Positions 168 through 15,597 of a stretch of 29,948 bases of DNA are shown one piece after another; within the stretch, counting starts at the first letter, position 1, and each line of letters begins with the position of its first letter. The position numbers and the translations under genes were made by a program. The notes beneath the pieces are model-generated. The model was not told the DNA's origin, did no database searches, and saw only the letters and a list, made by a program, of their open reading frames with translations. This DNA comes from a virus. Location: positions 1 through 29,948 of the IMG/VR virus record IMGVR_UViG_3300021076_000058; one strand, given 5' to 3'.

Positions 168-800
168 GTGGACCCGGAAATCAATTACGGACCAAAGTTT
201 TACATAGGTGACAAGGTTAGAATTCGTGCGTCTCAGCAATTGTATTGGAAGCTAGGATTTTGCACTTATGGTGCAGAGTCGATATTCGTAAAAAATACCG
301 GGATTGATTTTATAATTGTCGCCATCAACGAGATTCCACACATCAAATTTCCAGTTGTGTTGAACTGTCACGCAGTTGGATGTGATAATCATACTACACT
401 TAATGCGGCATATGTAAATTGGGCATTAGAAGGCGACCCATCTAGTGATTTTGCTAGAAAAAGCGGTAAGTATAAAACCTACCTAGAAACTTATCCACGC
501 TGCAAATGGTGCCATGAACCGATTAGACGCCGCGAATCAGGTGAGTATAAAGGCCATTGGGAACACGAAGCTATACAAGGAAGTGTTACGTTTGGAGCAG
601 TTAATTATTGGAATTGTTCTACTAATCATACTATCGACGGTGAATGGCATGTTGCCGAGCACCCAATAGAGAAGCCTTATACTCAGAAATACATTATTCT
701 AGCAAGTAACCGGAATGAAGCAGAATACCCCATTGAAAACGAACCTCAAATGGATGTTCTGGTACTTCCTCAAGGAAGAAGGTTTAAGAATTTATCATGA
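168..800 (+). CDS. Hypothetical zinc-ribbon-like protein with LPxGRxFK C-terminal tail
   Basis: 210 aa. The GTG start is chosen because AAGGAG lies 6 nt upstream, overlapping the end of the preceding gene. The C-terminal half has a CxxCHEPI motif (YPRCKWCHEPIRR, about residue 108 on) followed by His-rich segments and another Cys (NCSTNH), suggesting a small metal-binding fold. The protein ends LPQGRRFKNLS, a tail shared with three other proteins in this window. The next gene starts at 797, a 4-nt ATGA overlap, and looks like a shorter relative of this C-terminal half (CxxCGRPI, later Cys/His, same tail). Function unknown; no signal peptide or TM segment. Confidence 0.8.
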   Translation: MDPEINYGPKFYIGDKVRIRASQQLYWKLGFCTYGAESIFVKNTGIDFIIVAINEIPHIKFPVVLNCHAVGCDNHTTLNAAYVNWALEGDPSSDFARKSGKYKTYLETYPRCKWCHEPIRRRESGEYKGHWEHEAIQGSVTFGAVNYWNCSTNHTIDGEWHVAEHPIEKPYTQKYIILASNRNEAEYPIENEPQMDVLVLPQGRRFKNLS

Positions 801-1078
801 ACTGTGCTAATTGTGGGCGACCTATTTATTGGAGTCATAATCATGAGTATTATAAACACACAGAAGATGCAGAGTTTGCCGGTTGCCATTATTATGATAA
901 AAATTTACCTTATAATGATGATAATGGCACTTATCTTTGCGCCTCATTAGAAAAACAACCTTTTACAATTGGAAAAAAGACATTTGATAAACCTATTCCC
1001 AAAACTAATAGCAAACCTATTATCGATATTGATATAATTGAAATGCCTACTGGAAGAAAGTTTAAACAAGTATCTTGA
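797..1078 (+). CDS. Small CxxC zinc-ribbon protein with MPxGRxFK C-terminal tail
   Basis: 93 aa, coupled by ATGA to the gene before it. It opens MNCANCGRPIYW, a CxxC knuckle, followed by CHYYDKN and CASL, so four cysteines could bind one zinc ion. The C-terminus EMPTGRKFKQVS repeats the tail of the upstream protein after an unrelated linker. Its TGA stop (1076-1078) lies inside the -35 hexamer TTGACA of the promoter for the next gene. Probably a paralogue of the C-terminal half of the 168-800 product. Function unknown. Confidence 0.8.
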   Translation: MNCANCGRPIYWSHNHEYYKHTEDAEFAGCHYYDKNLPYNDDNGTYLCASLEKQPFTIGKKTFDKPIPKTNSKPIIDIDIIEMPTGRKFKQVS

Positions 1079-1103
1079 CAAATCAGCGATTCTATGGTAC
1101 TAT
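1075..1103 (+). promoter_or_regulatory. sigma70-type promoter, TTGACA-17-TACTAT
   Basis: -35 TTGACA at 1075-1080, a 17-nt spacer ending ...TATGG, and -10 TACTAT at 1098-1103. The TGG before the -10 gives a TGn extended -10. The ATG of the next gene is at 1110, about where transcription should begin, so the mRNA is predicted to be leaderless. Confidence 0.8.
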
Positions 1104-1109
1104 AAGACT

Positions 1110-1292
1110 ATGACATTGTATAATGTACGTTTCGGACTAGTAGGATCGAATGAAGTAAAGGAATATCGCCTATCCAGTGACAACATGTATCGAGCAGAAC
1201 TTATAGCATTAAATTTTCTACAAGTTAAGGATAACATTACAGACCCTGTACAATATACAGCAGTAAGTATTTTAGCAATTGATGAAGAATAA
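1110..1292 (+). CDS. Hypothetical 60-aa protein, predicted leaderless
   Basis: Start placed at the ATG at 1110 (MTLYNVRFG). The frame is open further upstream, but that part merely reads through the promoter at 1075-1103. The -10 box ends 6 nt before this ATG and no Shine-Dalgarno sequence lies between. The product is a small mixed alpha/beta-looking polypeptide with an acidic C-terminus (AIDEE). No recognisable family. Confidence 0.65.
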   Translation: MTLYNVRFGLVGSNEVKEYRLSSDNMYRAELIALNFLQVKDNITDPVQYTAVSILAIDEE

Positions 1293-1294
1293 GC

Positions 1295-1323
1295 TTGACA
1301 AACAAACAAAAGTGTAGTATCAT
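1295..1323 (+). promoter_or_regulatory. sigma70-type promoter, TTGACA-17-TATCAT
   Basis: TTGACA at 1295-1300, 17-nt spacer, TATCAT at 1318-1323, starting right after the TAA of the upstream gene. The expected start near 1330 leaves a short leader carrying GAGGA before the ATG at 1346, unlike the leaderless examples nearby. It lacks the TGG before the -10. Confidence 0.7.
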
Positions 1324-1345
1324 GTAATTCAAGAAATGAGGAATT

Positions 1346-1597
1346 ATGGCTTTAGAGTTTAGTGAAGTTGAAGAAGTACCGATTCCAACACCCAAGCGTC
1401 GTGGGCGTAAGGCCGTTCTGTCTTATCCTATTGCTGGCCTTACGCCCGGTACTGACGAGTCTTTTCTCGTTGATGTAGCTCCTGAATCCGTGAAGAAGGT
1501 AAGCATGAGTATACGCACTTTTGCATATCGTCATGGAATGCGCGTTATCATTCGCCCCGCAGAGGATTGGGGTATTCGAGTTTGGAGAAAGGTGTAA
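1346..1597 (+). CDS. Hypothetical basic protein, possible DNA-binding fold
   Basis: 83 aa with a GAGGA ribosome binding site 6 nt before the ATG. The N-terminus is Pro/Lys/Arg-rich (PTPKRRGRKAV) and looks flexible. The C-terminal part (SIRTFAYRHGMRVIIR, then GIRVWRK) has the alternating basic/hydrophobic look of small phage nucleic-acid-binding domains; I infer this and recognise no named family. First gene downstream of the 1295 promoter, followed 5 nt later by the 1603 gene. Confidence 0.7.
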   Translation: MALEFSEVEEVPIPTPKRRGRKAVLSYPIAGLTPGTDESFLVDVAPESVKKVSMSIRTFAYRHGMRVIIRPAEDWGIRVWRKV

Positions 1598-1602
1598 ATA
1601 AA

Positions 1603-1866
1603 ATGGCTAATTGGATTACTATTAATGTGACTAAGACCGGGATCAAGAAGGGTACATCTAATTATGCAAGTTGCCCTATTGCTCGTGCATTGAGGGCAAA
1701 AGGTTTTAAAGACGTAGGAGTTGGCGCTGTGTACGGTTGGTTTGTATACAAAGGTATACGCAACAATGCGTACTATTATTGGCCTAAGAAAGTCACAGAA
1801 TTTATTAGAAAGTTTGATTCAAATAAACAAGTAAGTCCCTTTACGTTCAAAGTGAAGGTTTCGTAA
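1603..1866 (+). CDS. Hypothetical protein, paralogue of the 10903-11169 product
   Basis: 87 aa from the ATG at 1603 (MANWITINV), with an AAAGGTG sequence upstream. The shared pattern with the gene at 10903 is clear: NVTKTGI(K/R)KG, CPIARAL(R/K)AKGFK, a Trp/Tyr-rich centre, then (K/R)FI(R/E)(K/R)FD(S/T)NK and PFTF at the end. The two copies are 9 kb apart with different neighbours, so they arose by duplication or separate acquisition. One conserved Cys lies in CPIAR. No known function. Confidence 0.8.
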   Translation: MANWITINVTKTGIKKGTSNYASCPIARALRAKGFKDVGVGAVYGWFVYKGIRNNAYYYWPKKVTEFIRKFDSNKQVSPFTFKVKVS

Positions 1867-2005
1867 CACAAGTTAGTAAATAGTGAGTCCAAGTTTTAAC
1901 TGTTTACTGCGTGTTCTCATAGTAACTTGGGGTGGCCTACGGACTCGCGGTAGGGCCAATAACCATGCGGCATCTAGCCGAAGTGAGTACAGTTTAAAGG
2001 AGAAA
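1867..2005 (+). ncRNA. Structured intergenic RNA / 5' leader (candidate)
   Basis: Non-coding stretch that folds well on paper. GAGTCC (1885-1890) pairs with GGACTC (1941-1946) around CCAAGTT (1889-1895)/AACTTGG (1924-1930). GGCCTA (1934) pairs with TAGGGCC (1951) with one bulge as an alternative, and CGGC-ATCTA-GCCG forms a hairpin at 1968-1980. It ends in AAAGGAG in front of the ATG at 2007. It could be a regulatory leader or a small RNA. I recognise no riboswitch class. Confidence 0.4.
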
Positions 2006-2006
2006 A

Positions 2007-2402
2007 ATGGCAGACGTATACAGTTTTACCACAGTGGAAGAAGATCGATATATGGACCGGGTAGCAGAAGAAGCCGATCCTGATAAGAACTTCTTTTTTG
2101 TTAAAGAGACAAACACAGGCAACGAAAGTGCTAACCTGTATTTGCTAATCCGTGAAAACTATCTTGACGAACTATCTGAGAACTATCCTAATGAGAAGCT
2201 TGGTGGACGAACTCTTGGAGAGATTCGCTTAATGGGTCTAGAGACTACCTTTAGATTGCTAGATGGGTTCCGCGTTCTTATCATCCCTGACCTGACTAAG
2301 CAAGAGAAGAATCACTGGCTTGTTAGATTGCATAATGAAGTGCGCCGTTTGAAGAATCTAGCTGAAGGCCGCACACTTCGCGTGCAGGTTGAAAGTTTAT
2401 AA
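2007..2402 (+). CDS. Hypothetical protein, 131 aa
   Basis: Strong AAAGGAG ribosome binding site 6 nt before the ATG. Acidic N-terminus (VEEDRYMDRVAEEADPD), a middle alpha/beta part, and a basic amphipathic C-terminal helix (VRLHNEVRRLKNLAEGR). No signal peptide, TM segment or metal motif. It lies between two structured intergenic RNAs. Function not recognised. Confidence 0.8.
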   Translation: MADVYSFTTVEEDRYMDRVAEEADPDKNFFFVKETNTGNESANLYLLIRENYLDELSENYPNEKLGGRTLGEIRLMGLETTFRLLDGFRVLIIPDLTKQEKNHWLVRLHNEVRRLKNLAEGRTLRVQVESL

Positions 2403-2510
2403 TCTCTAGTCGGTAGCACCAGCAGTGCGGTGGAGCCTTATAAACTCTAATAAACGCCAGATTAGCGTACCGGGAGGGGGCAGCACCCTCACTGACTACC
2501 ATCTTCATGA
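2403..2510 (+). ncRNA. Structured intergenic RNA / 5' leader (candidate)
   Basis: Several self-complementary elements: TAGTC (2407-2411) with GACTA (2494-2498), or in competition GGTAG (2412-2416) with CTACC (2496-2500); CACC/GGTG around 2417-2432; CGC-CAGATTA-GCG near 2455-2467; and the hairpin GAGGG (2474)/CCCTC (2486). The mutually exclusive closing stems could allow switching. An AAAGGAGG site follows for the gene at 2526. Family unknown. Confidence 0.4.
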
Positions 2511-2525
2511 AAGGAGGATAAAACG

Positions 2526-2741
2526 ATGAAGTATCTATTAGTTGCGCTAGGAATTGTTGCATTAATCGTGGTAATCGCAGTTGTGATTGCACTTCCTGTC
2601 ATGTTAATTGTTAATTATCTGTTCGCTCCGGCTGTTCTTACAGCAGTGTTTGGAGTTTCACAGTTAACTTTTTGGAAAGCATTTTGGCTTGCGATTTTGA
2701 CGGGTTTGCTATTTAAATCTAGTAATACAAGCACGAAGTAA
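2526..2741 (+). CDS. Small inner-membrane protein, two TM helices
   Basis: 71 aa with a strong AAAGGAGG site. Residues 3-32 form one long hydrophobic helix and residues about 38-64 a second one containing Trp/Phe (FWKAFWLAIL). The short polar C-terminus (KSSNTSTK) suggests a helical hairpin in the host inner membrane. Topology is predicted from sequence only. Candidate roles in such phages include superinfection exclusion or membrane remodelling, but nothing here decides that. Confidence 0.75.
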   Translation: MKYLLVALGIVALIVVIAVVIALPVMLIVNYLFAPAVLTAVFGVSQLTFWKAFWLAILTGLLFKSSNTSTK

Positions 2742-2746
2742 CAGGC

Positions 2747-2829
2747 GCGGGTATGGTGAAATTGGCAAACACGGTGGATTTAAGACCCACTGCTTAGGCT
2801 TGGGGGTTCGATGCCCTCTACCCGCACCA
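2747..2829 (+). tRNA. tRNA-Leu (UAA)
   Basis: Class II tRNA with acceptor GCGGGTA/TACCCGC, a long variable arm, a GGTTCGATGCC T-arm and encoded CCA. Anticodon loop TTTAAGA gives TAA. The pair next to the loop is A-C, a mismatch. Starts 6 nt after the membrane-protein gene. Confidence 0.93.
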
Positions 2830-2847
2830 CAAAATTGAAAGGATCAT

Positions 2848-3165
2848 ATGAGCAAACCAGCAGGTTTTGAACTAGCAGGACATATCGGAGTAGACGCAGG
2901 GTTGTGCTGGATTGGCGATCCATGTTATATAATCCACTCAACTGATGATAACAGTGTTGCATTAGGTAAAGATTGGGGCGAATTCTGTGATAAAACAAGT
3001 GATGGACGTTTAGACCACGATGGCTATCAATCTTTTAATTACCCCGCAGGGCACGAAGGATTAGGCGTGGTCACATCTACAGGTTGGGGTGACGGTACTT
3101 ACCCCGTCTACGTGAAAAAGAATAAAGAAGGCCGTGTAGTTGAAGTAAGAATTAAGTTTGCTTAA
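2848..3165 (+). CDS. Conserved-type hypothetical protein (GDPCYI...GDGTYPVYV)
   Basis: 105 aa; GAAAGGATC precedes the ATG, 18 nt after the CCA of tRNA-Leu. The motifs IGVDAGLCWIGDPCYI and GWGDGTYPVYV, and the tail GRVVEVRIKF, give an all-beta look. They resemble a small family I associate with phages and bacterial accessory regions (DUF4241-like), recalled rather than tested. No signal peptide. The TAA stop directly abuts the first base of tRNA-Lys, so message and tRNA are probably cut apart by tRNA processing. Confidence 0.8.
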   Translation: MSKPAGFELAGHIGVDAGLCWIGDPCYIIHSTDDNSVALGKDWGEFCDKTSDGRLDHDGYQSFNYPAGHEGLGVVTSTGWGDGTYPVYVKKNKEGRVVEVRIKFA

Positions 3166-3242
3166 GGGATTGTCGTATAATGGTTTATTATATCGGACTT
3201 TTAATCCGACTGATGAAGGTTCAAGCCCTTCCGATCCCACCA
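3166..3242 (+). tRNA. tRNA-Lys (UUU)
   Basis: Acceptor GGGATTG/CGATCCC, anticodon stem TCGGA/TCCGA with loop CTTTTAA (TTT), T-arm AAGGTTCAAGCCCTT, encoded CCA. It starts at the base after the upstream stop codon. Confidence 0.95.
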
Positions 3243-3259
3243 CACATTAGAAAGGTTAT

Positions 3260-3508
3260 ATGAAGCGCATTATCCTAACAGCACTAGTTTTGGTACTTAG
3301 CGGTTGTAGTCAACACTCATCGCAAGACTATTATTCCAACTATTTCTATGTTACATCCACTTACTATGGCTACGTTTGTCGCATCAACGAGACTGATGTT
3401 ACCGATCACCATTTATCACTAACAGATGCAACACGAATTTGTGCAACTTTGAACAAAGATATTGCAGGTAATGAGGATATACGAGAACACGATCTTGGTA
3501 GTTACTAG
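3260..3508 (+). CDS. Small lipoprotein
   Basis: 82 aa with AAAGG before the ATG. N-terminus MKRIILTALVLVLSGC is a type II (lipoprotein) signal peptide with lipobox LSGC and Cys16 as the predicted lipidated residue. The mature part (about 66 residues) is rich in Tyr, Ser and Thr and has two further cysteines that could form a disulfide. Predicted in the host envelope, membrane-anchored. Phage lipoproteins often act in superinfection exclusion; that is only an analogy. Transcribed through tRNA-Lys. Confidence 0.8.
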   Translation: MKRIILTALVLVLSGCSQHSSQDYYSNYFYVTSTYYGYVCRINETDVTDHHLSLTDATRICATLNKDIAGNEDIREHDLGSY

Positions 3509-3590
3509 TTTTATCATGGATGGCCGTGAATAGGGCAGCGAATAAACGGACACGCCGGGTGCGTGGTTACCAGCATCCATAGCCCACTAC
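3509..3590 (+). ncRNA. Structured intergenic RNA (candidate)
   Basis: Nested complementarity: outer stem ATGGATG (3516-3522)/CATCCAT (3574-3580), inner CCGT (3524-3527)/ACGG (3546-3549), and hairpin CACGC (3551-3555)/GCGTG (3561-3565). It ends just before the -35 box at 3591, so it lies at the 3' end of the upstream transcript. There is no U-tract, so not an obvious terminator. It may protect the 3' end or be a small RNA. Confidence 0.4.
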
Positions 3591-3619
3591 TTGACAAACC
3601 AACGATCTTGTGGTACTCT
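3591..3619 (+). promoter_or_regulatory. sigma70-type promoter, TTGACA-17-TACTCT
   Basis: TTGACA at 3591-3596, 17-nt spacer ending TTGTGG (TGG extended -10), TACTCT at 3614-3619. The recombinase ATG is at 3626, 6 nt after the -10, so the mRNA should be leaderless. Confidence 0.8.
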
Positions 3620-3625
3620 ATAAAC

Positions 3626-4141
3626 ATGCAACACTTATCCCAAGACGAGATGAAGGCGCTGCTCATGGCTATTCCCAATAGTCGCCAGCGCCTGATGCTT
3701 AAAGTAGGTCTATTACATGGCCTTCGTGTTTCTGAATTAATCAATCTTAAAAAAGAGAATATCAGAGATGGATATATCAAAGTTCAACGTCTGAAGGGGT
3801 CTGAAAAGACTACTCAGCGTTTTGTTCCAGATATTGCAGAAGAGTTAAACGCTCTTTATATCGCGGCTAAACCCAACGAACGCCTGTTTCCTATGACTCG
3901 TAGCGGGGTTTACAAGCTTATGCAGCGTGCCGGACAGCGTGCAGGTATTCCTGTTCACAAGCTGCATCCTCACATCTTAAAACATACTTGTGCCATGAAC
4001 CTTATCAAGACATTAGGCATTCATGAAGTACAGGAATATCTAGGGCATCGTTCTCTTAGCTCGACTGGTGAGTATCTTAACCCGGACGAAGAAGAGGTAT
4101 CGATTAAAGCCAGTGCCGCTCTGTCGGGAGTTCTTGTATGA
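3626..4141 (+). CDS. Minimal tyrosine recombinase (catalytic domain only)
   Basis: 171 aa from the ATG at 3626; more upstream starts would lie in the promoter. It is a phage-integrase/XerC-type catalytic domain with almost no N-terminal core-binding domain (usual enzymes are about 300 aa). Visible residues: Arg34 in GLRVSEL, Lys in KGSEKT, HPHILKHT in place of the usual HxLRHT (so the second catalytic Arg is Lys), LGHRSLS, and Tyr150 in GEYL as nucleophile. It probably cuts and rejoins DNA, perhaps resolving genome multimers; no attachment site or repressor is visible, so lysogeny is not supported. Coupled by ATGA to the PRTase gene. Confidence 0.85.
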   Translation: MQHLSQDEMKALLMAIPNSRQRLMLKVGLLHGLRVSELINLKKENIRDGYIKVQRLKGSEKTTQRFVPDIAEELNALYIAAKPNERLFPMTRSGVYKLMQRAGQRAGIPVHKLHPHILKHTCAMNLIKTLGIHEVQEYLGHRSLSSTGEYLNPDEEEVSIKASAALSGVLV

Positions 4142-4620
4142 TTAAAAATTATGACAAATATATGGGTTGCGCCCCCATTACAAAGTTTTTAGTAGCACCT
4201 GAACGTGATAAACATGTTAAAGCAGCCATTAAAGTTTTGGAGAAATTTAAAAAACAATTCGATACGATTGCATTTTGCGGTATGTCAGGAGCCTTAATAG
4301 CTCCACAAATTGCCGCTCATCTTAAAAAAGAATTAATAATGGTTCGCAAAAAGGGCGATAAACGCCATTCTTATCATAGTGTAGAAGGTTATGCAGATGT
4401 TAAAAAATACATTATTGTAGATGATTTTATAGATGAAGGTAAGACGGCCAAGCACATTCAACGCATGATTTTTGATAACGTTAATCAAGATGCTAAATGT
4501 TTAGGCTTGTTACCTGTGCAAGAATTAGCAGGAACTGGATCGGGCTACCAAAAAACCGAACTAGAAACATATATTATCCTAGAAGCATGTAAAGTAAAGG
4601 ATAAAAAGAAAAAAGGTTGA
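4138..4620 (+). CDS. Phosphoribosyltransferase-like protein
   Basis: 160 aa, start overlapping the recombinase stop (ATGA). Type I PRTase signature: YIIVDDFIDEGKTA with the acidic pair Asp95-Asp96 and the EGKTA phosphate loop that binds PRPP. The upstream FCGMSGAL is the PPi-loop region. PRTases of this fold act in nucleotide salvage or other base transfer; the base specificity cannot be read here. C-terminus is Lys-rich (KDKKKKG). The TGA stop lies in the -35 box TTGACT of the next promoter. Confidence 0.85.
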   Translation: MIKNYDKYMGCAPITKFLVAPERDKHVKAAIKVLEKFKKQFDTIAFCGMSGALIAPQIAAHLKKELIMVRKKGDKRHSYHSVEGYADVKKYIIVDDFIDEGKTAKHIQRMIFDNVNQDAKCLGLLPVQELAGTGSGYQKTELETYIILEACKVKDKKKKG

Positions 4621-4645
4621 CTTTCAAAGAAAGCTATGGTATAAT
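4617..4645 (+). promoter_or_regulatory. sigma70-type promoter, TTGACT-17-TATAAT
   Basis: TTGACT at 4617-4622 overlaps the PRTase stop. 17-nt spacer ending CTATGG (TGG extended -10), consensus TATAAT at 4640-4645, ATG of the next gene at 4652, again 6 nt after the -10 (leaderless). Confidence 0.85.
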
Positions 4646-4651
4646 GTACAT

Positions 4652-4915
4652 ATGAAGCGTTATAATAAACAGAAACCACATTTCGTTCAAGGAATTATTC
4701 TCACCACTACAATCAATAGCGCACCTAATAGTGTCCGTGCAGGTGAGAGCGCCTTTAAAGCTAGGATTCCGTTCTACAACAATCCTTATAAAGAGAACCC
4801 CGGCAAGTCCGGCTGGATTCGTGGATTCAAACGTGCAGAACGCGAATTCTTTGAGGCTCAAAAACGAAGCCAGAAGATTCTTGAAGCGGTTGGCTTTGAG
4901 GAAGTTGAGGCATAA
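4652..4915 (+). CDS. RMF-like (ribosome modulation factor-like) protein
   Basis: 87 aa. Residues about 29-65 fit the RMF pattern: GESAFKARIP then NPY, spacer, SGWIRGFKRAEREF (RMF: G-x2-A-x3-G, CPY, SxWLGGWREAM). In bacteria RMF binds the 30S near the anti-Shine-Dalgarno and silences ribosomes by dimerisation; a phage copy might slow host translation or protect ribosomes. A leaderless mRNA, as predicted here, needs no anti-SD contact, which would suit such a protein. Family assignment is by eye; the known relatives are short, so matching is delicate. Confidence 0.6.
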   Translation: MKRYNKQKPHFVQGIILTTTINSAPNSVRAGESAFKARIPFYNNPYKENPGKSGWIRGFKRAEREFFEAQKRSQKILEAVGFEEVEA

Positions 4916-4916
4916 T

Positions 4917-5144
4917 ATGGCCGATAATGTTTATACACGTCCCATGCCGGACTATGGCGATGTTTTCACTGTTGAAGAGTTTAAAGAATGCGTAAGAACA
5001 GGCGCATTTATTGATTATGACGGTAGCGCACATCCTGCCAAACTCATTGATGGAAAAATCATGTTATCGCATGAGTATATCAAACCTTCACGCATTCATG
5101 AACTCTCTGAGGATGCAACACACATAGCATGGTTTAACCGTTAA
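4917..5144 (+). CDS. Hypothetical acidic protein, 75 aa
   Basis: Start at the ATG at 4917 (MADNVYTRPM), 1 nt after the upstream TAA, with TTGAGG as ribosome binding site. The product has VFTVEEFKECVRTGAFIDYDG followed by a beta-rich part and ends HIAWFNR. No motif identifies a family. Neighbour of the RMF-like gene and probably co-transcribed from the 4617 promoter. Confidence 0.75.
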   Translation: MADNVYTRPMPDYGDVFTVEEFKECVRTGAFIDYDGSAHPAKLIDGKIMLSHEYIKPSRIHELSEDATHIAWFNR

Positions 5145-5153
5145 AAGGAAAAA

Positions 5154-5387
5154 ATGATTAAAGCAAAGAAAGAACGTAAGAAATTCTTACCTTTACCCGA
5201 AGGTATAGAAGTCGGCGGCTTAGTTCGATACTATCGACGTGGATGGCATATAGGGCATTTGCGCCAAGTCCAAGGCAACAAAGTTGCCGTCATGCCAATA
5301 GGCTATATCGGAACAGACACGCAAAATGATAATAAAGAGAAGAGAGGGAAGTGGATTCCCATTACCAGTATTGAAAAAGTACTTTAG
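5154..5387 (+). CDS. Hypothetical small basic protein, possibly SH3-like
   Basis: 77 aa; AAAAGGAAAAA leads into the ATG. A basic N-terminus (IKAKKERKKF) is followed by a likely small beta-barrel: VGGLVRYYRRGWHIGHL, NKVAVMPIG, GKWIPITSIEKV. The Gly/Trp/Val pattern is like nucleic-acid- or ribosome-binding barrels, an inference only. Its TTTAG stop is 4 nt before the next coding region. Confidence 0.75.
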   Translation: MIKAKKERKKFLPLPEGIEVGGLVRYYRRGWHIGHLRQVQGNKVAVMPIGYIGTDTQNDNKEKRGKWIPITSIEKVL

Positions 5388-5393
5388 GAATTG

Positions 5394-6569
5394 ATGGACA
5401 ATTTAGAAAGCTTTATACAGAAGTTCGGTGGACTTACTGAAGAATATGTTTTTTATAATGGTGAAGTCACCTTACGCTACGACCCAAAGGATCACGTATA
5501 TCTATTAGTAACTCCTGATGGTACTTTAGAAAAGGTACTAGGAGTTACAAGTGTTTCACACATCATTGACAAATCGATGATTCTGATTCCTTGGGCCTGT
5601 AAAATGATGCAACAGAAGCTTGTACCAGCTATCGTTGCAGCGGCTACACCAGTAGAAGGTACTACAGCAATTCAAATAGACTACCCGGTACTTGAGACTA
5701 TCATAGCTGACAGTAAACGGGCACACAAAGAGAAGCTAAACGAAGCCGGAGACATTGGAAGCATTGCCCATGCGTGGATCGAACAGTATATTAACTGCAA
5801 ATTAAACGATGATCTTTTAAAATACAATGAACTGTTACAAGCATTTCCACAAGATGAACGCGCTAAGAATGCTTGTCTAGCTGCTCTAGATTGGATGCAC
5901 TATCACAATGTTCGATGGATTCATACCGAGCGCAAGATATACAGCCGTAAACATAAGTATGCAGGAACAATGGATGGTCTGTGTTTAGTAGACTCTTGTA
6001 AAGACCCACTTTGTTGCCCGCATCCATTTAAGGATCGACTGTCTATCGCAGACTGGAAAACCAGTAATTACTTGTATCCAGAATATCTATTACAAACAGC
6101 CGCATATGAGGCAGCTTATGTAGAGGAGACACACCAAAAAGTAGAGGATAGATGGATCATTAGATTAGGTAAAGAAGATGCTAAATTTGAACCGTGGCAC
6201 CTAGAAGCCGAAACCTTTAAAGATGATTTTGATGCATTTCTTGCGGCCTTGAATTTACGCCTCAAGTTTGACATAATAGAAGAAAGAATTAGTAATATTA
6301 AGGATTTAAGCAAACAGAAAAAGAAACAAGATAAAGTAAAATCATTACTTCAAAAGTGCAAGAAAGCCGATACTTATAAAGGTATTCGCAAACCTAATTG
6401 TAATAAAGGCAATCCATGTGAGTACTGCTTGGCTAAGTACAAAGAGGTTCAAGATGCCAAGGCCGGAATAAAAGTTAAGGTTCAAGCGACCAAGAATGCA
6501 GGTAAGCGCAAAAGACTAACACCTAAACAAATCTTAGAAAGTTTGTCAAAAATAGCAAAAACATCTTGA
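5394..6569 (+). CDS. PD-(D/E)XK nuclease (RecB/Cas4-like exonuclease)
   Basis: 391 aa from the ATG at 5394 (AGGA upstream; a TTG three bases earlier is possible). Motifs: GSIAHAWIEQY (motif I His), GTMDGLCLVD with Asp194, ADWKTSN with Asp220 and Lys222, and an LLQTAAYEAA helix. Two Cys clusters (CKDPLCCPH about 203-211, and C-x-x-C near CEYCLAKYK) suggest a bound metal or Fe-S cluster as in Cas4/AddB relatives. Likely exonuclease for end resection, working with RecA and the helicases. Its TGA stop lies inside the -35 box at 6566. Confidence 0.8.
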   Translation: MDNLESFIQKFGGLTEEYVFYNGEVTLRYDPKDHVYLLVTPDGTLEKVLGVTSVSHIIDKSMILIPWACKMMQQKLVPAIVAAATPVEGTTAIQIDYPVLETIIADSKRAHKEKLNEAGDIGSIAHAWIEQYINCKLNDDLLKYNELLQAFPQDERAKNACLAALDWMHYHNVRWIHTERKIYSRKHKYAGTMDGLCLVDSCKDPLCCPHPFKDRLSIADWKTSNYLYPEYLLQTAAYEAAYVEETHQKVEDRWIIRLGKEDAKFEPWHLEAETFKDDFDAFLAALNLRLKFDIIEERISNIKDLSKQKKKQDKVKSLLQKCKKADTYKGIRKPNCNKGNPCEYCLAKYKEVQDAKAGIKVKVQATKNAGKRKRLTPKQILESLSKIAKTS

Positions 6570-6615: not shown

Positions 6616-6849
6616 ATGGCAGATAAACGATTTATATATAAGCGAATAACTTCACGCAGTAAAAGCCTATCTTCTATTCAAGAAGATTTTGAAAACGAAT
6701 TAAACAATATTCCATTGGGTTATGATTTTCATAGTTGGCAAGTTAATCCCGGCACAAACGATACTTCTGCATCATATCATGTAGTATTTGAAAAAAAAGA
6801 AGAAGTACATTCATTACCGTTCGGTCGTAAATTTAAAAAAGGAGAATAA
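6616..6849 (+). CDS. Hypothetical protein with LPxGRxFK C-terminal tail
   Basis: 77 aa. The body (FENELNNIPLGYDFHSWQ) resembles nothing I know. It ends VHSLPFGRKFKKGE, the third copy of the shared tail. The stop TAA overlaps the next ATG by one base (TAATG), so translation is coupled. First gene of the run from the 6566 promoter. Confidence 0.75.
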   Translation: MADKRFIYKRITSRSKSLSSIQEDFENELNNIPLGYDFHSWQVNPGTNDTSASYHVVFEKKEEVHSLPFGRKFKKGE

Positions 6850-7688
6850 TGGGAAGTGAGTTAACTGTATTAAATCCTAATGTAGCCGTTCAGCAAGGCG
6901 GATTAGGTGTAAATTTTGAAAGCAAGCTATTTAAGTTGAAACCGGCTACACTGACAATCGTGCAGCCTCAGAGTACGATTGCAGACGCAATCAAGGGTAA
7001 TCTTCGCATCTCAGAAACTGGTGATGAATTCAAGGAAATGCATGTAGCCTTATTGGTCATGCCTCAAGAACAACGCCAGTGGCACATTGGGGAACCGGGG
7101 GAGTTAAACCGTATTCCTGAGAATCTTATGTGCTTTAGCACAGATATGATTAAGCCCCATGTGAAAGCCAAGAAACCACAAGCCGTATATTGTGCCAATT
7201 GCAGCAGAGCAGATTGGGGTCCATATCGTGAGTATAAAGACAAGAACGGAAAGGCTAATAAGCAGCTTATTCCTACGTGCGATGCCTTCTATGTAGCCCA
7301 TTTGATCGACACTGTTTATCAACTGCCATTGAAGATGTATATTCGTTCAAAAGCAAAGCAACACTTTGAACAAGGGATGCAGAATGTAGCCCGTGTGATT
7401 GCAATGGCAAAGGCACAAAAGAAGAACCCAAACATTTTCGATGTGAAGTTCAAATTGACTACAAAGCTATTACAAGATGGCAAGTATTCATATTATGTTC
7501 CGACTATTTCAGAACCTAAGTTAATCAATGACGAAGAACGTGAAGTATTCGGAGCCATGTATTTGGCATTTAATGCTAAATCAACTCAGCAACAGTTAGC
7601 AGCAGATGAAGAAAGCACTATCGTAGACGCACAATCCACGGTTGATTCAGCCGTAACTGATGGTGTAAATGAGGAAATCAATATCTAA
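6849..7688 (+). CDS. Hypothetical protein, possible phage ssDNA-binding/recombination accessory
   Basis: 279 aa. A CANCSRADWGPY zinc-like pair (about residues 115-118) with a later Cys, then FYVAHLIDTVYQLPLKMYIRS and FDVKFKLTTKLL...KYSYYVP. The last ~40 residues are acidic (EESTIVDAQS...NEEINI), like the acidic tail of phage single-strand DNA-binding proteins. The fold and the tail are my only hints, so the role is a guess. Stop TAA overlaps the next ATG. Confidence 0.7.
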   Translation: MGSELTVLNPNVAVQQGGLGVNFESKLFKLKPATLTIVQPQSTIADAIKGNLRISETGDEFKEMHVALLVMPQEQRQWHIGEPGELNRIPENLMCFSTDMIKPHVKAKKPQAVYCANCSRADWGPYREYKDKNGKANKQLIPTCDAFYVAHLIDTVYQLPLKMYIRSKAKQHFEQGMQNVARVIAMAKAQKKNPNIFDVKFKLTTKLLQDGKYSYYVPTISEPKLINDEEREVFGAMYLAFNAKSTQQQLAADEESTIVDAQSTVDSAVTDGVNEEINI

Positions 7689-9783: not shown

Positions 9784-9792
9784 TGGAGGCAA

Positions 9793-10200: not shown

Positions 10201-10913
10201 TGGGAATAGAAATTATAAATCCTGTGCCACAGCAACACGAAGCAGTTATCGTAGGCGAAAAGGTAGCAGGTGAAGCAGCAAAAGCTAGAAAGGAAGTAGA
10301 GAAGGTAATCAAGAGCGCGAACAGTTCTATGTTCGATCTTGGTGAATTACTATATAAAATTAAATCTCAAAATTTGTATTCAGGATATACAACATTTTCT
10401 GAATATCTTACTAGTTTGAAATTTAAAAGACGTAGATTGGACTATCTAGTTAAAATAGCCGAAACTATGTCAATTTTAAATATCAGTCGTGAACAGTATG
10501 AACCACTTGGTTTATCAAAATTAAGGGCGATTACATCTTTCAAAGATATTAATGAAAGTTGGATTAATCCTGATACTAAACAAGAAATACCTTTTAAATC
10601 GTTTATTATAGGATTCGTTGAGAAAGGGTTGCAAATGACTCTTTCTGAGATTCAACAACACGTTCGCACACTCAAAGGCGAAGTAGGAGATGAATCTTTC
10701 GTAATCACTCACGTAAAAATAAAGCAAGGAGCACTTGACAAAGTAGTACGTCCTGCGTTAGAATTAATGAAAATGAAGTTGGGATCAAGCGGGAAAGATG
10801 ATGAGGGCAAGTCATATGATGCATCAGATGGTAGGGCATTAGAAATGATTTGTGCAGATTTTCTAAGCGATCCGGCTAATTTAATAGAAGGAGAGGAGAA
10901 AAATGAAAACTAA
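10200..10913 (+). CDS. Hypothetical protein, possible DNA-binding (HTH-like) region
   Basis: 237 aa, coupled by TAATG. Residues about 20-40 are a charged helix (AAKARKEVEKVIKSA), followed by FDLGELLYKIK and KFKRRRLDYLVKIAETM. These look like a DUF3102/ParB-type helix-turn-helix: 'short region binds, adjacent helix contacts DNA'. The acidic C-terminus (EGEEKNEN) overlaps the 10903 gene by 11 nt. Not assigned more closely. Confidence 0.7.
   Translation: MGIEIINPVPQQHEAVIVGEKVAGEAAKARKEVEKVIKSANSSMFDLGELLYKIKSQNLYSGYTTFSEYLTSLKFKRRRLDYLVKIAETMSILNISREQYEPLGLSKLRAITSFKDINESWINPDTKQEIPFKSFIIGFVEKGLQMTLSEIQQHVRTLKGEVGDESFVITHVKIKQGALDKVVRPALELMKMKLGSSGKDDEGKSYDASDGRALEMICADFLSDPANLIEGEEKNEN
10735..10764 (+). 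promoter_or_regulatory. Possible intragenic promoter, TTGACA-18-TAGAAT
   Basis: Inside the 10200 gene: TTGACA at 10735-10740, 18-nt spacer, TAGAAT at 10759-10764. It lacks the TGG preceding the -10 in the strong set. It could drive 10903 and downstream genes, or be a chance match in coding DNA. Confidence 0.3.
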
Positions 10914-11169
10914 GACTGTTAAGGTAAACGTAACTAAAACCGGCATCCGTAAAGGTGAGCAAGGCTCAACTGAATTTTGTCCTATTGCTCGTGCATTAAA
11001 GGCAAAAGGTTTTAAGAGCATTTGCGTGCATTGTGATAATGTTGAATTTGATGTTTATGGTCAAACTTGGTATATTAGCTTGCCCAAGCTTGCTCGTAAA
11101 TTCATCGAACGCTTCGATACTAACAAAAAGTCAGTAAAACCGTTTACATTCACTTTGAAGCTGGTCTAA
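10903..11169 (+). CDS. Hypothetical protein, paralogue of the 1603-1866 product
   Basis: 88 aa; GGAGAGGAG lies 4 nt before the ATG. Shares NVTKTGIRKG, CPIARALKAKGFK and FIERFDTNK...PFTF with the 1603 gene; the central part differs (CVHCDNVEFDVYG) and adds two cysteines. A small conserved fold of unknown role, present twice in this genome. Confidence 0.8.
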   Translation: MKTKTVKVNVTKTGIRKGEQGSTEFCPIARALKAKGFKSICVHCDNVEFDVYGQTWYISLPKLARKFIERFDTNKKSVKPFTFTLKLV

Positions 11170-11235
11170 TATGAGAAATCTAATAATCAACATTCAGTGG
11201 TTTGTCGTTAACTATGGGGCGTACTTGCCTCTATT

Positions 11236-11511
11236 TTGGAGATAAATACGCCTTTGAAATCTGAAAGCTTAAGTTGTTTTATTAGAGATGGGTGGAAATG
11301 CCGTCACTGTAATGATAGAATGGGCATTCACCCACATCATGTAATTTATAAATCCCAACAGGGGCCGGACGATCTAACTAATCTTCTGACCCTTTGTTGG
11401 CAATGCCACCATGCAGCACATGAAAAGAAATTACTAATAGAAGTAGTAAAGTTATTAGAGAACGATCTAGAAGTCAAATTTATTAGAGTAAAGGGTTGGC
11501 AACCAAAATGA
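11236..11511 (+). CDS. HNH endonuclease-like protein
   Basis: About 85-91 aa. HNH motif WKCRHCNDRMGIHPHHV, then LTNLLTLCWQCHHAAHE: two CxxC pairs and His residues binding zinc with HH as general base. No ATG: starts could be TTG at 11236 or TTG at 11254, the latter with GGAG at a long spacing of 12. Short compared with homing HNH enzymes; phage HNH proteins of this size may help packaging terminases or act as free nickases. Overlaps the next gene (ATGA at 11508). Confidence 0.8.
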   Translation: MEINTPLKSESLSCFIRDGWKCRHCNDRMGIHPHHVIYKSQQGPDDLTNLLTLCWQCHHAAHEKKLLIEVVKLLENDLEVKFIRVKGWQPK

Positions 11512-11702
11512 AAAAAGTACCTTGTAGTGGTCCCGGTTGCGAGAAAAGACGAATACACTATGAGCGTCCTGATACACCTAGAGGAACTGTGTTAGTTGAA
11601 GTTCCAGATACCTACGAAGGGAATGCTTTTTGCTCCATAGAATGTTACAACTATTATAAGACTGAAAATGCCACTACGTCCATACCAAAACAAAGCGATT
11701 GA
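11508..11702 (+). CDS. Hypothetical small zinc-binding protein
   Basis: 64 aa from the ATG at 11508, overlapping the HNH stop. VPCSGPGCEKRR and AFCSIECYNYY give two Cys pairs about 35 residues apart, typical of a treble-clef zinc finger in protein- or nucleic-acid-binding phage proteins. The 3' end overlaps the helicase start by 35 nt. Function unknown. Confidence 0.7.
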   Translation: MKKVPCSGPGCEKRRIHYERPDTPRGTVLVEVPDTYEGNAFCSIECYNYYKTENATTSIPKQSD

Positions 11703-13320
11703 AGCTATTCGATCTAACTACATTGCCGGGATCAACCGGCAATTGTTGTGTATGTCAACAGGGACGGGAAAAACGGAAGTGTTCTCTCACCTTCCAGAAC
11801 TCCTAAAAGACATTCTACCCGGTAAGACTTTAATACTAATTCATCGGGACGAACTCGCCAAGCAAGCCTATAAAAAAATCCTATTACGCAATCCATCGTA
11901 TATTGTACATATAGAGGCTGGTCCTTTGTATGCCGATCCTAAGCACGCCGATGTTGTCATTGCTAGTGTTCAAACATTAGGGAGAACAAATAGCGAAAGG
12001 GCTAAGAAATTCGATTTTAGCGGCTTCGACAAGATAATAGTAGACGAAGCCCATCGCAGTATCACGGATAGCTACAACAACGTTTATGAGCTAATAAATA
12101 TCACTTCTGAGAAGCTACTTCTAGGTTGCACAGCAACCCCTACTCGTGGGGATGGACAAGGATTAGGAACTCTATATAAGAAAATTGTATACGACTATCC
12201 ATTAAGAAAAGGAATTGAAGAAGGTTATTTAGTAGATATAAAGGGAATCCGTGTTAATACTTCTACTTCGCTAGATGATGTTCATACAAAGGGCGGTGAG
12301 TACGATCAAAAAGAATTAGCCGACACTGTGAACAATCCTACTAGAAATCATTTAGTTTGTACTGCTTATAAGAAATACTGTGCCGGACGTCAAGCAATCG
12401 GTTTTTCAGCAAATGTGCAACATGCCAAGGATTTGGCTAAAACGTTCCAAGATAACGGAATAAACGCAGAAGCTATATGGGGTGCCGATCCTGATAGAGT
12501 CAAAAAGCTACAAGAATTTAGAGATGGCTATATCGAAGTATTGTTTAACGCACAATTACTTGTAGAAGGATTTGACTTATCCACAATAGAATGTGTCATA
12601 TTAGCCGGTCCTACTAAAAGTCCTGTTGTATTTGCCCAACGTTGCGGGCGTGGCACTAGATTGCATCCGGGCAAGAAAGACTGTATCGTTCTGGATGTTG
12701 TTGATAGTACAACACGTCACAGCCTTATTACTATTCCTACTTTACTTGGGATGCCAGCAGGTTTGAACCTTCAGGGTCAAAGCTTGGTTCAATCGATTAA
12801 AAAGATTGAGGAAAAGTTAAAAGAGTATCCACATTTAGATTTTACCAATCTTAAAGACATTGATAAGATTGACCAATTCATTGAAGAAGTAAATCTATTT
12901 GAGGTTAAATTTCCACAAGAAGTTGAGAAACACAGTACTTTTACATGGCATCCAGCTTACACTGGTGGTTATGTCTTGATGCTACCGGATAGAGAAGAAG
13001 TAAGAATTCAGCAGAATTTGCTTGACAAATGGGAAATTCGTGGTATAGTAAAAGGAAAGAAGTACAAAGGCGAACGTGAGAGCATGGCAGAGGCGTTCTC
13101 AGCAGCCGATAATTTGATTAGGGAAAAAATACCGGAATGTTTGACGATTGTAAAACGGGAAGCGGAATGGCATAAGTTACCGCCTACTGAGAAACAAATG
13201 AAGCGTATCAAGAAAATCTATAAGGGAAAACAAATTCCAGCAGACCTATCAAGAGGGGCAGCACATAAAATTATTGGGTTATATTTTGCTGGTAAGGAGA
13301 AAAAGACTAATGGAAAGTAG
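11668..13320 (+). CDS. SF2 DEAH-type helicase (UvsW/type III-res-like)
   Basis: 550 aa. Walker A STGTGKT (residues 30-36), DEAH 126-129, GCTATPTRGD (III), LLVEGFDLS, and QRCGRGTR from 324 (VI), so both RecA-like domains are complete. The C-terminal ~130 residues are specific to this protein and end in a basic segment (KEKKTNGK). Like T4 UvsW it may branch-migrate recombination intermediates or unwind R-loops. Contains a possible internal promoter near 13022. Start supported by continuous homology (MPLRPYQNKAI), although the Shine-Dalgarno is weak. Confidence 0.9.
   Translation: MPLRPYQNKAIEAIRSNYIAGINRQLLCMSTGTGKTEVFSHLPELLKDILPGKTLILIHRDELAKQAYKKILLRNPSYIVHIEAGPLYADPKHADVVIASVQTLGRTNSERAKKFDFSGFDKIIVDEAHRSITDSYNNVYELINITSEKLLLGCTATPTRGDGQGLGTLYKKIVYDYPLRKGIEEGYLVDIKGIRVNTSTSLDDVHTKGGEYDQKELADTVNNPTRNHLVCTAYKKYCAGRQAIGFSANVQHAKDLAKTFQDNGINAEAIWGADPDRVKKLQEFRDGYIEVLFNAQLLVEGFDLSTIECVILAGPTKSPVVFAQRCGRGTRLHPGKKDCIVLDVVDSTTRHSLITIPTLLGMPAGLNLQGQSLVQSIKKIEEKLKEYPHLDFTNLKDIDKIDQFIEEVNLFEVKFPQEVEKHSTFTWHPAYTGGYVLMLPDREEVRIQQNLLDKWEIRGIVKGKKYKGERESMAEAFSAADNLIREKIPECLTIVKREAEWHKLPPTEKQMKRIKKIYKGKQIPADLSRGAAHKIIGLYFAGKEKKTNGK
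13022..13049 (+). promoter_or_regulatory. Possible intragenic promoter, TTGACA-16-TATAGT
   Basis: TTGACA at 13022-13027, spacer of 16 ending TTCGTGG, TATAGT at 13044-13049. It carries the same GTGG-TAT signature as the strong promoters, though it lies in helicase codons. It would serve genes from 13310 on. Confidence 0.45.
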
Positions 13321-13618
13321 CGAACTCACACAAGAGCAATTTGAACTGATTAAGGCTTTTTGTTCTAATAAAAGTATTATTGTATTTTGTCCACATCCTC
13401 TTGGTACAGAATCTCAAGAGGAAATAGAAAATCATGATAAAAATCTAGCTAACTTACAGGCTCTTGAAAAAGAAGGATTTGTTAAGAATGTCACAGAAGA
13501 GTGGAAAGCCGGTATGGAATTTAACCGCAAACAAGGGCAGCGAGATTTTGACGCTTATGCGCTGACAGAATTAGCATATAAGATGTTTAATCCTAATGCA
13601 GAAGGGTTGCCAAACTAA
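13310..13618 (+). CDS. Hypothetical protein, 102 aa
   Basis: Start at the ATG at 13310 (MESSELTQEQF) with AAGGAG 10 nt before, inside the 3' end of the helicase gene. N-terminal FELIKAFCSNKSIIVFCPHPL and the helical part NLQALEKEGFVKNV look like a winged-helix-type small domain. The stop overlaps the next ATG by one base (TAATG). No family recognised. Confidence 0.75.
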   Translation: MESSELTQEQFELIKAFCSNKSIIVFCPHPLGTESQEEIENHDKNLANLQALEKEGFVKNVTEEWKAGMEFNRKQGQRDFDAYALTELAYKMFNPNAEGLPN

Positions 13619-13833
13619 TGATTAGAAGTGATCCAACACTAACTAATTTTATCCAGTATTGCCAAGACCACCCTGAAGAACGTTTTTGGCAAGCACTGAG
13701 GAATTGGAGCGGCTACTATGCTATAATGGCAATTAGTAAAGTAGCCGGGATAGGCGGCGGTGGTGAAGTTCGACAAACACATGACACATTTTATATAGAA
13801 GGGAAAAGACATGACTACCACAAAAAAAGCTAA
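13618..13833 (+). CDS. Conserved-looking hypothetical protein (RFWQALRNWSG)
   Basis: 71 aa, coupled by TAATG. The core QDHPEERFWQALRNWSGYY is a pattern I have seen in many phage/bacterial small proteins of unknown role. Ends in HDYHKKS and overlaps the ligase gene start by 23 nt. No metal or membrane feature. Confidence 0.75.
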   Translation: MIRSDPTLTNFIQYCQDHPEERFWQALRNWSGYYAIMAISKVAGIGGGGEVRQTHDTFYIEGKRHDYHKKS

Positions 13834-15007
13834 CCATCAAGCAAACATTGTGCGCGTGACTGAGATTAAACCGCACACAAACGCCGATACCTTAGAGATT
13901 ATTCCCATAGGTGAATATCAGGTTGTGTCTAAGAAAGGCCAATTTCATGTTGGGGATTTAGCCGTGTATATCCAACCTGATAGCGTGGTTCCTCAGACAG
14001 AGCCTTTTAAGTTTATTTGGGAACAATATATGTGCGTTCCAGAGCCGGGAGTAGATGCTGAATTTGTTGTCCCTGAAAAACGCAGACGCATTACTGTGCG
14101 TAAATTCAGGGGAGAATGGTCTGAAGGTTTGCTACTTCCTGTTAAGGATTTTGGAATCTCTGATAAAGGTGCGTACTGTGATTATCTAGAAACCTATTCG
14201 TGGAAAGAAGGTGATGATGTGTCTGACTTTCTTGGTATTACGCATTACGATCCAGATGCCGGTAAGGAAACTACTGTAGGTGAAAACATGCGTGCGCCAA
14301 AAGCGAGACGCAAGTATCCTAAATCTCTACGTGGATGGGTTACATATATCTGGAGACACGTCAAGAACTTATTTGGTCAATATGATGCCATCGGCGGTAC
14401 TGATGCTGGTATAAGTCTTGGTATTCCTACCTATGACGTTGATGCATTTAAGAATCACAAAGGCGTATTCCAACCTGACGATGTAGTGTTTGTCACTGAG
14501 AAGATTCACGGCAGCAACGCACGTTATGTGTATCTAGATGGTATAATGTACGCTGGTTCCAGAACATTATGGAAAGCAGAGAACAGTAATTGCATTTGGC
14601 GTAAAGCGTTAAAACAGAATCCATGGATCGAAGAATGGTGCAAAGCGCATCCTAATCATGTTCTATGGGGCGAAGTTACGCCTACTCAGGGCGGTTACAA
14701 TTACGGAACAGATAAAGTACAATTCTTTATGTTCGATGTGTACTTACCTGATGGTAAATGGGCCGATGCAAACTCTTCTGGTGAATTGAATATCGGTATT
14801 GACAAAACTGTGCCTATACTGTATTATGGACCGTATGACGAAGAAAAGATTAAAGCTTTAGTTGATGGTCCGTCTACTGTAGAGGGCGCGAACCATATCC
14901 GTGAAGGTGTTGTAATTAAGACGGCTGTAGAAAAACATGTTCATGGATTAGGTAGAGCGCAGTTAAAGATAGTGTCAAATCGGTTTTTGGAGAAAGACAA
15001 TAAATGA
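13811..15007 (+). CDS. RNA ligase with N-terminal OB-like domain (DraRnl-like)
   Basis: 398 aa. N-terminal residues about 13-60 (NADTLEIIPIGEYQVV...GDLAVYIQP) look like the OB fold preceding the catalytic domain in the D. radiodurans-type ligase. Catalytic motifs: EKIHGSN with Lys231 (I), LWGEV (III), EGVVIK with Glu365 (IV), LKIVSNRF with Lys386 (V). Such ligases seal 3'-OH/5'-PO4 breaks in duplexes with RNA at the 3' side. A second ligase type next to an Rnl1 enzyme widens the repair range. The SD-less start overlaps the upstream gene. Confidence 0.85.
   Translation: MTTTKKANHQANIVRVTEIKPHTNADTLEIIPIGEYQVVSKKGQFHVGDLAVYIQPDSVVPQTEPFKFIWEQYMCVPEPGVDAEFVVPEKRRRITVRKFRGEWSEGLLLPVKDFGISDKGAYCDYLETYSWKEGDDVSDFLGITHYDPDAGKETTVGENMRAPKARRKYPKSLRGWVTYIWRHVKNLFGQYDAIGGTDAGISLGIPTYDVDAFKNHKGVFQPDDVVFVTEKIHGSNARYVYLDGIMYAGSRTLWKAENSNCIWRKALKQNPWIEEWCKAHPNHVLWGEVTPTQGGYNYGTDKVQFFMFDVYLPDGKWADANSSGELNIGIDKTVPILYYGPYDEEKIKALVDGPSTVEGANHIREGVVIKTAVEKHVHGLGRAQLKIVSNRFLEKDNK
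14799..14827 (+). promoter_or_regulatory. Possible intragenic promoter, TTGACA-17-TATTAT
   Basis: TTGACA at 14799-14804, exact 17-nt spacer, TATTAT at 14822-14827, in ligase codons. It lacks the TGG before the -10. It would serve the small genes 15004-15597. Could be chance. Confidence 0.4.
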
Positions 15008-15105
15008 GAGATAATATACCAATCCCAATACCGGGGTTTGAAGGAATACCCCCGGTAAAACCTAATAAGAAAGGAATAACATGCCTAGCAGCGGATACGG
15101 TGTAG
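15004..15105 (+). CDS. Possible small protein, 33 aa, with internal GC stem
   Basis: ATG at 15004 overlaps the ligase TGA (ATGA). The frame runs MRDNIPIPIPGFEGIPPVKP to a TAG at 15103-15105, overlapping the 15081 gene by 25 nt. Its codons include CCGGGG (15031-15036)/CCCCGG (15050-15055), a 6-bp stem with 13-nt loop. Pro-rich and too short for family signs. ATGA coupling is the main argument for it being real; the hairpin might instead be the function. Confidence 0.4.
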   Translation: MRDNIPIPIPGFEGIPPVKPNKKGITCLAADTV

Positions 15106-15305
15106 AAGATATTCCATTGAAAGATGTATTATCGTTCAAAAGAGCCTTGCGTCAAGCACCGGGTGCTAAAGTACCGAAGGGCACACCACCAGCAGGTAGG
15201 AAATACAGAGAATTAGAACTACTTTTTCAAGAATCAGCAAAAGCGCAAGGTAAATCAGTACGTCAATTAGATACAGAGGTTTGGCAATCATATGCACGGA
15301 ATTGA
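15081..15305 (+). CDS. Hypothetical basic protein, 74 aa
   Basis: AAAGGAA leads into the ATG. N-terminal VEDIPLKDVLSFKRAL, a Pro-rich middle (PKGTPPAGRKYR), and a C-terminal helix (ELELLFQESAKAQGKSVRQL). Overlaps the next gene by 14 nt. Not recognised. Confidence 0.7.
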   Translation: MPSSGYGVEDIPLKDVLSFKRALRQAPGAKVPKGTPPAGRKYRELELLFQESAKAQGKSVRQLDTEVWQSYARN

Positions 15306-15597
15306 ACAAAGACGGTGTAAAGGCGAAACACTTAAGACCGCATCTTGGGGTATTACCGATACTGTGTTTATGAAATTCTACCCGTTTGCAGGGAGCAGCG
15401 GGGTTAATGTAACAAATGTTTATAATAATTGGCAATACCGGAATGATAATATTTATTCTGGCATTCCTTTAGAAGAAACCAAATATATAAATAGTTATGA
15501 TCCAATTGATCCAATTAAAGAATCAATTATAATTACTAATGCTCCAAATGTAGACATAGAAATTCATCAATTACCTTTTGGGCGTAAATTCAAATAA
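15292..15597 (+). CDS. Hypothetical protein ending in the LPFGRKFK tail
   Basis: 101 aa. Body (FYPFAGSSGVNVTNVYNNWQ) is Asn/Tyr/Ile-rich with no known motif; the last 8 residues are exactly LPFGRKFK, the cleanest of the four tail copies. No strong ribosome binding site; coupled by overlap to the upstream gene. A promoter starts 3 nt after its stop. Confidence 0.7.
   Translation: MHGIEQRRCKGETLKTASWGITDTVFMKFYPFAGSSGVNVTNVYNNWQYRNDNIYSGIPLEETKYINSYDPIDPIKESIIITNAPNVDIEIHQLPFGRKFK

Follow-up and report, generated by a model that had tools for sequence, protein, structure and literature searches.

Introduction

Sliding-clamp motifs and the acidic C-tail of single-stranded DNA-binding protein (SSB) are portable short motifs that bring unrelated partners to one hub. 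The bacterial sliding clamp is portrayed as a hub for many partners (PMC11139829). In the bacterial proteasome system, one GQYL tail is common to the ATPase Mpa and to the unrelated Bpa (bacterial proteasome activator); both dock on one proteasome, and Bpa is recognised through its shared GQYL end (PMC4254994). Import into the phage nucleus by the PicA pathway, on the other hand, is reported to read a folded surface instead of a terminal signal (PMC11087766). Here we describe a C-terminal tail, [LM]P-x-G-R-[KR]-F-K, that is shared by four small proteins of a soil bacteriophage fragment (IMG/VR virus record IMGVR_UViG_3300021076_000058; the whole stretch of 29,948 bases is called the window below) and whose core recurs in related phages, among other places at the ends of an AAA+ ATPase and of its genomic partner, a DUF3150-like protein. 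We consider it probable that this tail serves a phage protein-remodelling module as a short linear motif for docking, read by a common receptor.

With the GQYL/HbYX tails it shares the placement of one short tail on an AAA+ ATPase as well as on otherwise unrelated proteins. It differs in that GQYL or hydrophobic-Tyr-X stands at the extreme C-terminus, whereas the phage core lies 1–42 residues inside, and in that the phage tail has another sequence, follows no tyrosine rule and implies no proteasome. Nor does its sequence look like an ssrA-like degradation tag, as its terminal residues vary freely and its core lies inside the chain to the same extent. The basic-aromatic R-[KR]-F-[KR] contrasts with the clamp motif QxxLF and with the acidic DIPF-type tail of SSB; on inspection, no QxxLF or QLSLF-like sequence was found in the phage tails. 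The linked gene cluster is reminiscent of Ycf46/Ycf35 (DUF1257)/DUF2997 of cyanobacteria and plastids, as it likewise sets DUF1257 and a weak DUF2997 beside an AAA+ ATPase, the latter presumably resembling Ycf46; among 14 control genomes, DUF1257 was present in one, Synechococcus elongatus. The PicA pathway is similar in that unrelated phage proteins are selectively recruited, but it belongs to nucleus-forming phages, and there is no hint of a nucleus in the window phage.

Four unrelated proteins of the window share the tail

All four open reading frames (ORFs) for which the initial annotation had reported the tail were recovered at the coordinates given there and with the C-terminal sequences described:

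168..800, + strand: protein of 210 residues with the tail LPQGRRFKNLS (ORF)
765..797, + strand: tag LPQGRRFKNLS, end of the 168–800 product (ORF, codon inspection)
797..1078, + strand: protein of 93 residues with the tail MPTGRKFKQVS (ORF)
1043..1075, + strand: tag MPTGRKFKQVS, end of the 797–1078 product (ORF, codon inspection)
6616..6849, + strand: protein of 77 residues with the tail LPFGRKFKKGE (ORF)
6814..6846, + strand: tag LPFGRKFKKGE, end of the 6616–6849 product (ORF, codon inspection)
15292..15597, + strand: protein of 101 residues with the tail LPFGRKFK (ORF)
15571..15594, + strand: tag LPFGRKFK, end of the 15292–15597 product (ORF, codon inspection)

Within the set of 61 non-overlapping window ORFs of at least 40 residues, these four have GR[KR]FK among the final 20 residues, and the motif has no internal occurrence in the window. 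When the tails were shuffled internally 20,000 times, no protein matched in 19,951 shuffles and a single one in 49, never more; the full pattern did not occur once. The tag codons differ between the four copies (GGA AGA AGG TTT AAG; GGA AGA AAG TTT AAA; GGT CGT AAA TTT AAA; GGG CGT AAA TTC AAA), so that a copied DNA element was ruled out as their source. Once the last 16 residues were removed, no pair of the four proteins matched at an expect value (E) of 1 or below, confirming that their bodies are unlike; the body of the 168–800 product also matches no other tagged protein. An exception had been made for the first two proteins (168–800 and 797–1078), which were thought to be akin. Here, a weak, zinc-site-like resemblance was seen with the tails on (E 0.036), but it did not extend to the bodies, which gave no match at E ≤ 1 with the tails off. 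The shuffles, the varied codons and the unmatched bodies together thus show that the tail is genuine at the protein level and that its carriers are unrelated. A functionless spread of gene 3’ ends via recombination is scarcely credible as its origin: three tails of one related contig (L234) do have nearly identical codons, but synonymous codons vary among the tags of the window and of the relatives G015, G007 and L218, and conservation over ATPases of 35–55% identity needs selection.

Scans of PHROG and Pfam gave no match for the 168–800 product and no family for the 6616–6849 product. The 797–1078 product starts with MNCANCGRPI, probably a zinc site, and this N-terminal CxxC stretch resembles that of a tagged protein in G007. 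A homologue of the 15292–15597 product is encoded at the equivalent location in L009, the contig with the primase closest to that of the window (E 4.9e-4 without the tail); it is tagged as well (VRHGRKFKNIFL), ending in GRKFKNIFL. For two of the tagged window proteins relatives were searched for directly, without a match, and BLASTP gave no support for the 168–800 product as the positional equivalent of a tagged 260-residue protein in G007. Inside a 74-residue ORF at 15081–15305, some 32 residues before its end, stands a sequence resembling the tag, PPAGRKYRELELL; this ORF matches the C-terminal part of a 196-residue L009 protein.

A looser core recurs on further proteins of related phages

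Judged by the exonuclease and the primase-helicase of the window, the closest named phage is Tunturiibacter phage Tunturi_3, a cultured podovirus with an Acidobacteriota host, with which the window shares long-range synteny in reversed orientation. Alignment searches with the primase-helicase yielded 76 related viral contigs, many of which were fetched almost whole; many contigs are fragments. The strict eight-residue pattern did not carry over to relatives: none of the seven first tested contained it even with one mismatch allowed, and a scan of IMG/VR with the exact pattern returned internal or non-terminal matches only. The tag is seen in relatives only with a looser core, R-x-[FIM]-x, which in the clade of the window often reads GR[KR]F[KR]; the [LM]P that the annotation had counted as part of the tag is confined to the window phage. 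The expectation that further unrelated proteins would end in this way was borne out with the looser core, as similarity grouping by BLASTP distinguished about 20 tagged families among relatives, a number in which remote homologues may be split.

In G007 (99 kb), at least seven proteins end in [GS]R[KR]FR, in addition to an ATPase ending in GRMMR; G010 carries the tag on five and G021 on four accessory proteins, in both cases also on the ATPase and the DUF3150-like protein. Across the fetched genomes, strict [GSH]R[KR]F[KR] adds up to 32 C-terminal and eight internal occurrences, with about three C-terminal ones expected. For the AAA-bearing loci of the window clade the figures, from which the ATPase and DUF3150-like proteins were left out, are 21 C-terminal versus seven internal (0.83 expected, p = 2e-15). 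At the L218 locus, approximately six proteins are tagged, several of them ending in GRKFRDE, a 68-residue protein among them.

One tail on many unrelated proteins would suit a sorting code, and a localisation or virion packaging signal therefore has to be weighed. We regard it as very improbable, as none of the recognised structural families covered by the scans was hit by a tagged protein, and neither a compartment gene nor a scaffold gene was observed in association with the tag. No virion proteomics bearing on this was found; searching the text of the Tunturi virus paper for mass spectrometry gave no hit.

The tag is linked to a viral AAA+ gene cluster

The gene cluster that goes with the tag comprises a Cdc48-like AAA+ ATPase and a DUF3150-like helical protein, which are unrelated to each other but both have the motif as their end, with DUF1257, a weak DUF2997 and a protein of about 112 residues located between or around their genes. 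The ATPase scores 40.2 bits with PF00004, above the Pfam cut-off of 21.2. Its alignment has conserved columns G-x-P-G-x-x-K-[ST], DE-[IV]-E-K and RF, corresponding to Walker A, Walker B and the arginine finger; no Walker A motif was seen on inspection of its first half. The partner reaches 17.7 bits with DUF3150 (PF11348), below the cut-off of 24.9, and is for this reason named ‘DUF3150-like’ only. DUF1257 (PF06868) is assigned above threshold (33.6 versus 22.2 bits), in eight of 29 records, all eight of which also have the ATPase, whereas DUF2997 (PF11211) stays slightly under its cut-off (21.8 versus 24.1 bits).

An alignment scan with the ATPase gave 291 viral relatives, from which 80 loci were kept for counting. 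The ATPase was recovered at 77 and the DUF3150-like protein at 69 of these loci, a DUF1257-like protein at 37 (perhaps 15 more), the ~112-residue protein at 27 and a DUF2997-like protein at 24 (perhaps 12 more). In a genome collection scanned with a 12-sequence ATPase alignment (the 60-sequence version being too diverse), the ATPase was found in merely three cellular contigs, all bacterial, and the cluster is thus essentially viral. Phages of Rhodobacter, Rhizobium and Agrobacterium have more distant ATPases with neighbours of DUF1257/DUF2997 size; a cluster-neighbour protein ends in GRKITI in RcTiptonus and one in TGRKVIITSRKRRLRLS in JP1, and these may or may not be of the same family. A literature search, with subscription papers and most preprints outside its coverage, found nothing on DUF3150 in phages, solely papers about other matters for DUF1257/DUF2997, and no description of a link between such a tail and a phage unfoldase.

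A highly conserved arginine in a variably placed tail predicted to be disordered

In the DUF3150-like alignment, which has a mean column identity of 21%, the tail arginine is the sole invariant column (59 of 59). The corresponding ATPase arginine is present in 58 of 60 sequences, preceded by a linker variable in length and sequence. Tails were aligned either with MAFFT or with an anchor rule that took each protein on its own, blind to its partner. Typically, [KRA]-[IFM]-x-[FL]-[DE] follows the arginine, with a basic residue at the third position after it (+3) in the window clade. The arginine lies 1–21 residues from the C-terminus in the ATPase and 3–42 in the DUF3150-like protein, so the annotated confinement of the tag to 0–4 residues before the stop does not hold in relatives, and its placement up to 42 residues inside argues against recognition of a free C-terminus. 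In the DUF3150-like protein of L125 (15589–16584; G008), the chain runs on for about 40 residues beyond the tag VPGRKFRG, from which an internal position seems to be tolerated.

AlphaFold gave confident models of the bodies of the ATPase and the DUF3150-like protein (mean predicted local distance difference test, pLDDT, 94.0 and 91.4), while the tails, with pLDDT values of about 59 and below 50, are predicted to be disordered. Foldseek placed p97, Cdc48 and Rix7, proteins with two stacked AAA domains, as best matches of the ATPase (E ~1e-11, TM-score 0.35–0.53). No significant fold match in the PDB was obtained for the DUF3150-like model; its fold therefore points to no function, which does not by itself make it a new fold.

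These features also bear on the main rival to a docking motif, according to which the tail is a substrate tag: the ATPase would read it and unfold or remodel the tagged proteins, with its own variant tail acting as a gating pseudosubstrate. The resemblance of the ATPase to unfoldases of the Cdc48/p97/Rix7 type and the mostly accessory nature of the carriers speak for this, as does the ATPase tail variant GR[KMV][MIV]R, which differs systematically from the other tails at the aromatic position. However, the DUF3150-like protein is a near-constant partner (69 of the 80 loci) with an invariant arginine, which fits a subunit better than a substrate, and there is no evidence of degradation. We thus judge a substrate tag to be unlikely, albeit the most serious of the alternatives.

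Tails match within a genome

Within a genome, the tails of the ATPase and the DUF3150-like protein resemble each other far more than shuffled pairs do: in a test set thinned for redundancy, the mean similarity was 7.0 versus 1.85 ± 0.72, a value reached in none of 5000 shuffles. The effect persists when the window clade is taken by itself (p 0.0002) and also among the remaining genomes (p 0.0018), and ancestry alone cannot make the tails of non-homologous proteins alike. L234 has GRKIR on four proteins, the DUF3150-like protein and three others, and GRKVR on its ATPase. The G015 contig begins within the DUF3150-like gene, whose product ends in PIRRFRD, and two more of its proteins end in HVRRFRDA and QPIRRFR. 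The +3 residue is K in all four window tags and R throughout the tags of G007. Base composition was rejected as the cause of this choice, as all tags of L218 have R at a K/(K+R) ratio of 0.60, yet those of G017 have K at 0.47; no correlation with the K/R use of the proteome was found. Matching of C-terminal motifs in one genome can hence suggest partners among non-homologous proteins.

Variants of this kind might also arise if the tails bound a host hub, such as a protease, polymerase, ribosome or clamp, and tracked the host of each phage. Phage proteins often mimic host motifs, and hosts may differ among the phages. Docking on a host factor nevertheless appears improbable to us, as the tag tracks the phage gene cluster, with its mere three bacterial contigs, as the ATPase and DUF3150-like tails recur where the ATPases share only 35–45% identity, and as a related tail form is present in a contig labelled Flavobacteriales.

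A docking motif of a putative remodelling module

In the initial annotation the tail had been taken for a sorting or docking tag, with compartment import, virion packaging, partner binding and protease recognition left side by side. Partner binding is favoured here because the tail ends an ATPase and its genomic partner, is predicted to be disordered, variably placed and matched within genomes; the other three are conceivable but not needed. The tag itself, how widely it occurs and how well it is conserved, its association with the cluster and the within-genome matching are all observed directly; to these, docking on a common receptor would add the following mechanism. The module would consist of the Cdc48/p97-like AAA+ ATPase, the DUF3150-like protein, DUF1257, DUF2997 and the ~112-residue protein, with the ATPase presumably remodelling proteins. 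As the same motif is found on the ATPase, the DUF3150-like protein and varying accessory proteins, including the four of the window, all of these could occupy one receptor pocket, and the tag would in effect recruit accessory phage proteins to the machine. We infer that the receptor is probably phage-encoded; the simplest guess is that it may be an untagged cluster member, for which DUF1257 is the obvious candidate. A more far-reaching version, which we put forward tentatively and with reservations, is that of a Cdc48-like machine with a portable recruitment code, in which R-[KR]-[FI]-[KR] at a disordered end could enrol any phage protein and the code would drift jointly in each genome.

Several points weigh against docking on such a module. 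It is a computational interpretation, and the gene models behind it are longest ORFs. The association of accessory tags with the cluster is modest: of the contigs that reach 85 kb or more, seven of ten with the cluster have such tags versus one of seven without. The cluster was not detected in G028 and G019 despite their accessory tags, G028 being the exception in that size class (another contig of its sub-clade, L064 and L225, has the cluster). Conversely, T3, G012 and G020 bear the cluster but have zero strict accessory tags. Shared ancestry partly inflates the significance of the within-genome matching. Finally, no ATPase, DUF3150-like or DUF1257 gene lies within the window. Its left part contains the following feature:

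2007..2402, + strand: untagged synteny anchor, with orthologues in G007 and G010 just past the AAA/DUF1257/DUF2997/DUF3150-like cluster

Since these orthologues adjoin the cluster, that of the window phage should lie beyond the left end of the fragment; judged from synteny, the phage probably has it outside the 30 kb considered here.

If docking on a common receptor is correct, the motif ties dozens of orphan phage proteins to an uncharacterised AAA+ module in hundreds of viral contigs, a module whose reach includes the cultured Tunturi_3 and, more distantly, phages of Rhodobacter, Rhizobium and Agrobacterium. The function of this module would become testable by a short peptide, as the tail is expected to retrieve the receptor. 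The recruitment code, if it exists, would make this a widespread phage system, not described before, whose tag language is consistent in itself.

Further observations on the window

A second common tail, an acidic stretch followed by I-x-I, ends the 279-residue protein encoded at 6849–7688 (NEEINI) and the primase-helicase at 15955–17991 (GDIQI); orthologues end in EGDIII, DGDIVI, QGDIVI, DQEITI or VVTI, and those of the 6849–7688 product are annotated as Cas4-like exonuclease or primase. This tail is reminiscent of acidic C-tails of the SSB type. The window further contains 16 transfer RNA (tRNA) genes (26390–28750 and 2747–3242), including a block of 13 on the − strand; three tRNA genes have been reported for Tunturi_3 (PMC11924767). 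At 27438–27768 on the − strand, an RF-1-domain protein is spread over two overlapping frames, while it is a single gene of 115–120 residues in Tunturi_3 and Tunturi_4; the split may reflect a frameshift, a sequencing error or a programmed shift.

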